From: an uncultured Selenomonadales bacterium
GTDB lineage: Bacteria; Bacillota; Negativicutes; Acidaminococcales; Acidaminococcaceae
Assembly (NCBI GenBank): GCA_900315805.1
Contig: ONAN01000002.1
Location: forward strand, 1-64,000
Direction of reading: 5' to 3'
Length of the DNA: 64,000 nt
Shown here: positions 23,354-25,256 of the stretch, one piece after another
Layout of the letters: each line of letters begins with the position of its first letter
How positions within the stretch are numbered: the first letter of the stretch is position 1
Translations under genes and position numbers: made by a program
The notes under the pieces: generated by a model
Database searches by the model: none
The model's input: the letters and a program-made list of their open reading frames with translations, nothing else
Told to the model about the DNA's origin: nothing

Positions 23354-23860
23354 ATGCTGAAGACCGTATTAGCCTTTAATTTCCATCCGGACCGCCTGCA
23401 GGCCCTGCGCCGCGTGTGCATGATCCTGAAGGTCAACTGCCGCGAAGTGCCCCTGGAGTCGTTCAACGACTCCATCGGGTTCCTGGCCGGCGCGAAGGAC
23501 TGCCCCCAGGAAGCCGTCAACCCGGCGGAAAACGCCGAAGACAAACTGACGGCCGCCCTCGAAGAGGCAGCCGCCAAGGCAGGGGAGGATCCGGAAAGCG
23601 TAAAAAAAGCCGCCATGCAGCTCCTGCTGGATGCGGCACAAAAAGAAATGACCGTCCTCTGCGGATTCGACATGCACCTGCTGAACCGTTTCCTGGCAGC
23701 CGTCAAGAAGAGCCCCTTGAAGGACATCGAGCTCAAAGCCATGCTGACGCCCACCAACAGCCGGTGGAGCGCCCGGCACCTGCTGCAGGAACTGGCAGCG
23801 GAACACGTCTATATGCACCAGAAGAAGAACGGGGCAGCCAAAGGACTGCACAACAAGTAA
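23354..23860 (+). CDS. DUF3783-type small protein
   Basis: 168 residues. The layout matches short Firmicutes proteins carrying DUF3783: an N-terminal segment VLAFNFHPDRLQALRRVCMIL, an acidic variable insert (about 55-90), then VLCGFDMHLLNRFLAAVKKS and the conserved ending KAMLTPTNSRWSARHLLQEL. It is cytoplasmic by sequence and its function is unknown. It starts 26 bases after purA, so it probably shares that transcript. Its last bases are the U-run of a terminator that faces the other strand. Confidence 0.75.
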   Translation: MLKTVLAFNFHPDRLQALRRVCMILKVNCREVPLESFNDSIGFLAGAKDCPQEAVNPAENAEDKLTAALEEAAAKAGEDPESVKKAAMQLLLDAAQKEMTVLCGFDMHLLNRFLAAVKKSPLKDIELKAMLTPTNSRWSARHLLQELAAEHVYMHQKKNGAAKGLHNK

Positions 23861-24319
23861 AAAAAGACAAAACGAAAGCCCGCGCCATCAACCTTCAATG
23901 TCGCGGGCTTCCTAATGACTTGCCTCTAACTTCTGCATTGGACTGTACCCCATTTCTTTAATATTCTTCTAAGAACATCACTTTCATGAGGATCAACCTT
24001 CTTTTCGTAGATCTACTACTCATTACTTGATTTGCAGTACCATATTCAGTTTTTGAGGTGCTTCGTTGGTGCTTCGTTAACTTGCTAACTGCGAATACTC
24101 ACTGCTAACTTACTACTTCGTTAACTTACTGCTTACAACTACTTTCAACTACCTCTTCCAAACTGCTTCAAGGATTTCTGAAGTCTTGCTTACGTTTTCG
24201 GCGGAACCACTTCCTTTCCTGTTTCCCGAGAAATATCGTCCCTTCCTTCACCAGGCTTTTCCGGGTGATGGGCTTGCGCCCTGTCTCCGGAACTTTCTTT
24301 AGGCGACCTCTCTCTTTTC
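23859..24319 (-). ncRNA. Candidate structured noncoding RNA, about 460 nt
   Basis: This gene-free stretch has no convincing ORF on either strand. On the minus strand it has a promoter (24354-24326) at one end and a terminator hairpin plus T-rich tail (23910-23859) at the other. Near the 5' end TTCCGG and CCGGAA close a stem around GGGC-GCAA-GCCC, a GNRA-type tetraloop hairpin (about 24293-24260). A CTTCA/TGAAG hairpin follows near 24180. The centre holds a GAGGT...ACCTC-bounded block with repeated GTTAACGAAG. It is not an evident RNase P, tmRNA, SRP RNA or T-box. Confidence 0.4.
23865..23910 (-). terminator. Minus-strand terminator
   Basis: A nine-bp stem (23876-23884 with 23902-23910) is followed by a T-rich run only in the minus-strand direction. 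No minus-strand protein gene lies upstream within 10 kb, so it must end another transcript. Confidence 0.6.
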
Positions 24320-24325
24320 ATCTTT

Positions 24326-24354
24326 ATAGTACAATAGATTTACAAATAAATCAA
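24326..24354 (-). promoter_or_regulatory. Promoter of the candidate ncRNA
   Basis: On the minus strand TTGATT (24354-24349) and TACTAT (24331-24326) are 17 bases apart. The surrounding DNA is A+T-rich and holds repeated TGTAAAC-like words at 24362-24400. Confidence 0.45.
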
Positions 24355-24544
24355 GTGAAATATGTGTAAACTTTGTAACATGTAAACTTTTATAAACAAA
24401 TTGTACGGGAATAGTGGACAATAAGAAGGACAGTTTGGCCGGAAACGGCCCGGATTGACAGGCAACGCCGCCGCGCATATCGCGCCTTTGGCCGGAAAGG
24501 ACGGCAGCAGGCCCGGCAAAACGTTAACAGTCCACGGAACATGG

Positions 24545-24616
24545 TTGACATAAACCCCCGGCCGGTCGTATAATAGGGATTGCAGGTTAACTGTCAAATC
24601 AACATGGTTAATGCAA
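24545..24616 (+). promoter_or_regulatory. bioY promoter with BirA-type operator
   Basis: TTGACA (24545-24550) and TATAAT (24569-24574) are 18 bases apart. Just downstream, TTGCAGGTTAAC (24580-24591) and GGTTAATGCAA (24606-24616) form an imperfect inverted repeat around a 14-base spacer. This is the arrangement of Firmicutes biotin-repressor (BirA) sites upstream of biotin genes. It is the only promoter seen before the bioY-thiolase-ligase set. Confidence 0.6.
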
Positions 24617-24689
24617 CCGTAACCGGCCCTGCAAGGCCGCATACGACGGCCCCACGGGGCCGCATAGTTTGGATTAGGAGATGTTTTTC

Positions 24690-25256
24690 ATGGAACAGAC
24701 GTCGCGCATGCCGAGAGAAGAAGGCACTCTGACGAAAACCCGTACCTTGACGAAAATGGCCCTGTGTGTGGCCCTGCTGGCGATTTCCGCCTATATCTCG
24801 TTCCCGCTGCCGTTCACCCCGGCCATGGTGACGGCCCTGACCATCGTGGTCAACCTGGTGGCCTTCATCCTGAAGCCGCACGAAGCCTTTCTGGTCCTGC
24901 TGGCCTGGATGATCCTCGGCGCCGTGGGCGTGCCCGTCTTCGTCGGCGGCACGGCGGGCCTGGGCAAACTGGTCGGCCCCACGGGCGGCTTCGTCGTCTC
25001 CTTCCTGGTGGCAGGCTGGCTCATGAGCAAGCTGCGCGGCAACGCGAACTCCTTCAAACGCTTCGTGTTCCTCGGCATCGTTGTCGGCATGCCGGTCATC
25101 TACATCGGCGGCTGCATCTCCATGTACCTGGTGGCGCACATGAGCGTCTGGGCGACCCTGGTGGCGGCCGTGTTCCCCTTCATCGTCGGCGATGTCGTGA
25201 AAGTGCTGATTGCCGCCTTCCTGGCCACGCGCATCAACAAGCTGGTCAAGGACTGA
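24690..25256 (+). CDS. bioY: Biotin transporter BioY
   Basis: 188 residues with five or six hydrophobic segments and the BioY phrases FPLPFTPAMVTALT, GAVGVPVF and GPTGGFVVSFLVAGWL. It is the S-component for biotin uptake, alone or with an ECF module encoded elsewhere. The ATG at 24690 is chosen because AGGAG at 24676-24680 touches the earlier ATG at 24681 but is nine bases from this one. A BirA-type operator lies upstream. Biotin is relevant to the decarboxylase subunit at 38948-40498. Confidence 0.93.
   Translation: MEQTSRMPREEGTLTKTRTLTKMALCVALLAISAYISFPLPFTPAMVTALTIVVNLVAFILKPHEAFLVLLAWMILGAVGVPVFVGGTAGLGKLVGPTGGFVVSFLVAGWLMSKLRGNANSFKRFVFLGIVVGMPVIYIGGCISMYLVAHMSVWATLVAAVFPFIVGDVVKVLIAAFLATRINKLVKD

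Follow-up and report, generated by a model that had tools for sequence, protein, structure and literature searches.

Sequence conservation strongly supports a stand-alone transcription unit in Succiniclasticum that lies on the minus strand of the DNA analysed here, has its own promoter and terminator and is conserved in the genus. We propose, with a probability of about 0.5, that it encodes an orphan, ribosome-engaging and possibly dual-function small RNA that is specific to this genus and divergent from the biotin transporter gene bioY.

The RNA gene and its distribution

In the window (the whole 64,000-nucleotide stretch that was analysed), a protein-free gap of 820 bp at 23861-24680, put at 830 bp in an earlier note on this DNA, separates a DUF3783 gene (23354-23860, plus strand) from bioY (24681-25256, plus strand). 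The RNA gene (23859..24322, minus strand; 464 nt) is convergent with the former and divergent from the latter, and runs from a predicted 5′ end at about 24322-24320 to the T-tract of the terminator. Both signals named in the earlier note are present: a minus-strand promoter with 17-base spacing (TTGATT-17-TACTAT, 24326..24354), and an intrinsic terminator (23859..23910, minus strand; arms 23910-23898/23888-23876) with a minus-strand T-tract, which is conserved. The window promoter was not listed by a consensus scanner, yet it lines up with a promoter that 13/13 homologous sequences share; shorter forms of the RNA, described below, have an extended -10. Upstream of it lies a palindrome, TGTnA-N6-TnACA (24365..24380, minus strand; TGTTACAAAGTTTACA in the window), which recurs in all 13 aligned promoters and may be the binding site of a regulator that would switch the RNA gene. 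Eight further sites with one mismatch were found elsewhere in the genome, most of them between genes, and a palindrome regulon was rejected, as the neighbours (among them EF-G-like, IMPDH-like and MetQ-like genes and an aminotransferase) had no common theme. The promoter of bioY (TTGACA-18-TATAAT, 24545-24574, plus strand) is flanked by GTTAAC-type inverted half-sites within 24525-24612; these look like BirA boxes and were read as ordinary biotin repression.

In a bioY search, the nearest relatives of the window gene lay on contigs of Succiniclasticum and Acidaminococcaceae, and the window genome was placed in Succiniclasticum. BLAST with the window RNA revealed homologues, either full-length or in two parts, in two more genomes, and reading upstream of bioY in relatives, together with a pattern search, located the gene in most of the genus. 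When a covariance model was trained on nine short-form copies only, with the window copy left out, it identified the gene in 12 of the 14 Succiniclasticum genomes and recovered the window copy with E values of 6e-11 (3′ part) and 1.7e-4 (5′ part). Among 45 other genomes of the Acidaminococcaceae the same search yielded no credible copy; its hits beyond the genus (L091, L093-L096) were dismissed, either as the end of a gene with an unrelated terminator beside it or as low-scoring, mostly coding sequence. Sequence searches of phages, plasmids and viral contigs gave no match. Wherever the contig extends far enough to show it, bioY is the constant and always divergent neighbour, whereas the genes on the terminator side vary from species to species and are often convergent. 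As for the two genus genomes without the RNA, one (G013) has bioY, with another gene where the RNA would be, and the other (G010) is without a close bioY. One assembly (G006) holds two different RNA copies on separate contigs (L071, L079), either paralogues or a strain mixture.

Among eight short-form species, mean identity was 0.78 for the RNA and 0.76 for the 70-bp promoter, whereas adjacent intergenic DNA reached 0.43 and third codon positions of bioY 0.57. Identity this far above both comparisons indicates a gene-like unit under selection rather than a chance gap. The locus thus has what is generally expected of an intergenic small-RNA gene, namely its own promoter, an intrinsic terminator and conservation beyond the species. 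No Rfam family was matched, either by cmscan at the gathering threshold over the window or permissively over 23800-24680, where the sole output was a eukaryotic snoRNA model far under its cut-off. This bears out the earlier view that the RNA is not RNase P, tmRNA, SRP, 6S or T-box RNA; the 6S and RNase P RNAs were located elsewhere in the window genome, so the gap RNA is neither. A literature search returned no bacterial small-RNA study for Succiniclasticum.

Short and long forms and their structure

The RNA occurs in two forms, a short one of about 220 nt in nine genomes and a long one of about 390-464 nt in three related species (the window, G004 and G009), so that the 464-nt length of the window copy is atypical for the family. 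The short form comprises, in order, the promoter, a helix around a hairpin, two sequence modules, an NTG codon, an ORF of 8-9 codons and the terminator; its helix (GAAGUACC/GGaUACUUC) encloses a C/G-rich hairpin. The long form has the same two ends, a variable repeat-bearing middle and a 3′ block that is near-identical in the three species. What lengthens the window copy is that one conserved block and a rapidly changing, repeat-rich spacer, the purine-rich middle at 24030..24185 (minus strand), which carries tandem repeats spaced by 11 and 16 nt and is found in the long form only. The repeated GUUAACGAAG to which the earlier note had drawn attention lies in this fast-changing region, which owes part of its sequence to local tandem duplications; the one-mismatch copies of GUUAACGAAG in the window (4 vs 2.2 expected) are at chance level, and we regard it as chance or fast spacer. 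The GAGGU/ACCUC helix said to enclose it is lost in the nearest relative.

The proposed 5′ hairpin UUCCGG-GGGC(GCAA)GCCC-CCGGAA (24259..24292, minus strand) fared better. Two long-form relatives have a UUCUGG/CCAGAA stem, in which a compensatory change from C-G to U-A keeps the pairing, and all three long forms keep a GNRA loop (GCAA, GAAA and GAAA). The equivalent short-form hairpin covaries at 3/5 pairs, and the terminator has covarying pairs in the short forms. Both-side changes in the 5′ hairpin and terminator amounted to 6 pairs and 13 cells, with means of 3.0 and 4.8 for the controls (shuffled and slid). Aligning relatives for covariation, as the earlier note had suggested, thus gave covarying pairs in these two elements and conservation beyond the species; the remaining helices are nearly invariant and so uninformative. 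The minus strand of the window copy folds better than dinucleotide shuffles (z -4.5). Overall, this is a modest structure, in which the 5′ hairpin and the terminator covary and the other helices are mostly invariant. With only about 10 independent sequences available for the covariation and coding comparisons, both lines of evidence are thin.

Shine-Dalgarno-like modules and tiny reading frames

The best-conserved parts of the RNA appear to be extended Shine-Dalgarno-like modules whose sequence, with the consensus AAAGGAGUG[G/A]UUCC, complements the 3′ tail of 16S rRNA. Each RNA was scanned against the tail GGAUCACCUCCUUUCU, for which perfect pairing gives -28.4 kcal/mol; the sequence of this tail, GGATCACCTCCTTTCT, was taken from G013, the only genus genome in which the pattern was found, the 16S end not being found in the assembly of the window. 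Module 1 (AGGAAAGGAAGUGGUUCC, 24203..24220, minus strand; AGAAAGGAGUGGUUCC in the short form) pairs at about -19 kcal/mol and is the best 16S-tail site in 12/12 sequences (-18.8 to -19.4 kcal/mol), despite one-base length changes. Shuffle means were near -13 kcal/mol, dinucleotide shuffles equalled module 1 in 1-5% per sequence, and the module ranked third among all 16S-tail sites on both strands of the 64-kb window. No start codon follows it at normal distance. Two weaker modules lie downstream in the window: GAAAAGAAGGUUGAUCCU (23989..24006, minus strand; -15.1 kcal/mol), found in the long form only and identical in the three long-form species, and GAAAUGGGGUACAGUCCA (23939..23956, minus strand; -14.3 kcal/mol), the counterpart of short-form module 2. 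Short-form module 2, AAAGGAGUGAUUCCA, pairs at -12.8 to -15.7 kcal/mol and has an NTG codon downstream; the last module of the window is a poorer Shine-Dalgarno match than that of most short forms. The second-best 16S-tail site of each RNA surpassed 93-100% of shuffles. Alternatively, the GGA...UCC elements may owe their conservation to a role as short hairpins (GGAA/UUCC). Two NlpC/P60-type genes from two other genomes (L005 1501-1530 and L007 430-451) carry, in codons for YVFGGTTP, 22-30 nt of near-perfect antisense to the core of the window RNA; this pairing was put down to chance, as the RNA of G002 lacks the matching bases and G038 has no other trace of the RNA.

At the 3′ end, a tiny ORF (MQKLEASH-stop, 23912..23938, minus strand) has an NTG start and an in-frame stop in 12/12 sequences. 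In the short forms it reads MQRLSDFES and variants. Over the 12 sequences the ORF has 8-9 codons, starts with ATG, TTG or GTG and ends at the terminator. A change from AGU-CGA to UCG-AGA keeps Ser-Arg, UUA/UUG and GAU/GAC replacements are likewise synonymous, and one sequence (L049) has a three-base in-frame deletion. These patterns support, but do not prove, translation of the ORF; a peptide of 8-9 residues is far below the size of most functional bacterial peptides. The earlier proposal of a minus-strand non-coding RNA of about 460 nt therefore holds as to a stand-alone RNA gene with a genus-wide promoter, core and terminator, gives a length that is not shared by most of the family, and is uncertain as to purely non-coding status, given that the ORF and its Shine-Dalgarno-like site are kept in all sequences.

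Other frames were also noted. A possible ORF, MKVMFLEEY (23958..23987, minus strand; MKVMFLKEY in relatives), is weak and confined to the three long-form sequences. A VVPPK(T)-stop frame with an NTG start crosses module 1 (24185-24216, minus strand) in 12/12 sequences with variable Pro wobble bases; its Pro-Pro ahead of the stop would suit a ribosome-stalling peptide if it were translated. It has no evident initiation site, and its start, which abuts the Shine-Dalgarno-like core of module 1, is for that reason unlikely to initiate. A 43-aa ORF (24321-24190) was rejected: in L073 it ends after six codons, its frames are lost in the short forms and it has no Pfam hit.

Proposed role and relation to known systems

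We suggest that the RNA engages 30S subunits through pairing between its repeated modules and the 16S rRNA tail, a step that is supported, not proven. The last module would start translation of the 8-9-codon ORF, whose stop abuts the terminator. Module 1, the strongest and with no start codon in reach, may serve ribosomes as a standby or docking site, or act as a decoy. The RNA may thus be dual-function, combining a tiny peptide with an RNA activity. Rather unlikely, in our estimate, is the further-reaching reading of a natural Shine-Dalgarno mimic, in which repeated loops hold, park or titrate 30S subunits by pairing with the 16S tail, conditions are sensed through the palindrome and the tiny ORF is a by-product or else reports on ribosome loading.

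Several other explanations were weighed against a ribosome-engaging RNA. An ordinary trans-acting small RNA that pairs with target mRNAs, its Shine-Dalgarno resemblance and tiny ORF being incidental, is possible if on balance unlikely. The intergenic position, own promoter and Rho-independent terminator, restriction to one genus and conservation of unpaired segments all suit it. Small RNAs that block mRNAs usually carry the complement of the Shine-Dalgarno sequence, however, whereas the most conserved segment here resembles that sequence itself, and the only striking complementarity, to the NlpC/P60 genes, was judged to be chance. We doubt still more that the transcript is a small mRNA whose 5′ leader is structured and whose only product is the 8-9-residue peptide: the peptide differs strongly between the long (MQKLEASH) and short (MQRLSDFES) forms and the RNA core far upstream is more conserved than the ORF, even though the Shine-Dalgarno-like site, the NTG start and the stop in 12/12 sequences, the synonymous changes and the in-frame deletion would all fit.

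The constancy of bioY, and its absence at close range from a genome that also lacks the RNA, could point to a biotin-linked cis element or an attenuator on a neighbouring gene. This is very unlikely, since the RNA is divergent from bioY and has its own terminator, and G013 keeps bioY without it. Nor does a same-strand gene that an attenuator or leader peptide could regulate follow the RNA, its neighbour being convergent in the window and the downstream genes variable among species. Least probable is a large ornate RNA of the ROOL, GOLLD, OLE or raiA kind. The earlier likeness to ROOL or raiA-type RNAs, drawn from size and isolation, has in its favour some features of the window copy (464 nt, a fold z-score of -4.5, an isolated gene and a GNRA loop), but it falls with a common form of about 220 nt, a simple structure of few helices and little covariation, occurrence in one genus, and the absence of an Rfam hit at a permissive threshold and of any phage or viral-contig match. 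A CsrA sponge was rejected, as PF02599 was detected in 0/14 genus genomes while control genomes were positive.

With these findings, Succiniclasticum, a common rumen genus of succinate-to-propionate fermenters, gains an undescribed, well-delimited RNA gene. If the ribosome-engaging reading is true, it would be an unusual small RNA that works through the anti-Shine-Dalgarno tail and not through mRNA targets.

Among known systems, and with no claim of kinship, the RNA seems closest to dual-function small RNAs of ordinary size, such as the 219-nt Pos19 of Rhodobacter sphaeroides (PMC5036791) or SR1/SR1P of Bacillus subtilis (PMC8152036). It shares with them a stand-alone intergenic gene of about 220 nt that has a promoter and a terminator of its own, as well as a small ORF with a ribosome-binding site (predicted here), but its ORF runs for just 8-9 codons, right up to the terminator. 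Experiments have established extended SD-anti-SD helices in Staphylococcus aureus, a Firmicute (PMC13009471); as at such starts, complementarity to the 16S tail reaches past the GGAGG core and, in the last module, lies upstream of an NTG codon, whereas here the strongest module has no start codon and modules are repeated within one small RNA. Several GGA motifs, some in predicted loops, recall the GGA-repeat sponges of the CsrB/RsmY type, from which the RNA differs in that the 14 genus genomes have no CsrA gene. With the ornate ROOL, GOLLD and OLE RNAs (PMC12286853) it has in common an isolated non-coding gene of several hundred nucleotides in the window species; unlike them, it matches no Rfam model, has a simple structure and no phage link was seen, and its relatives are short.
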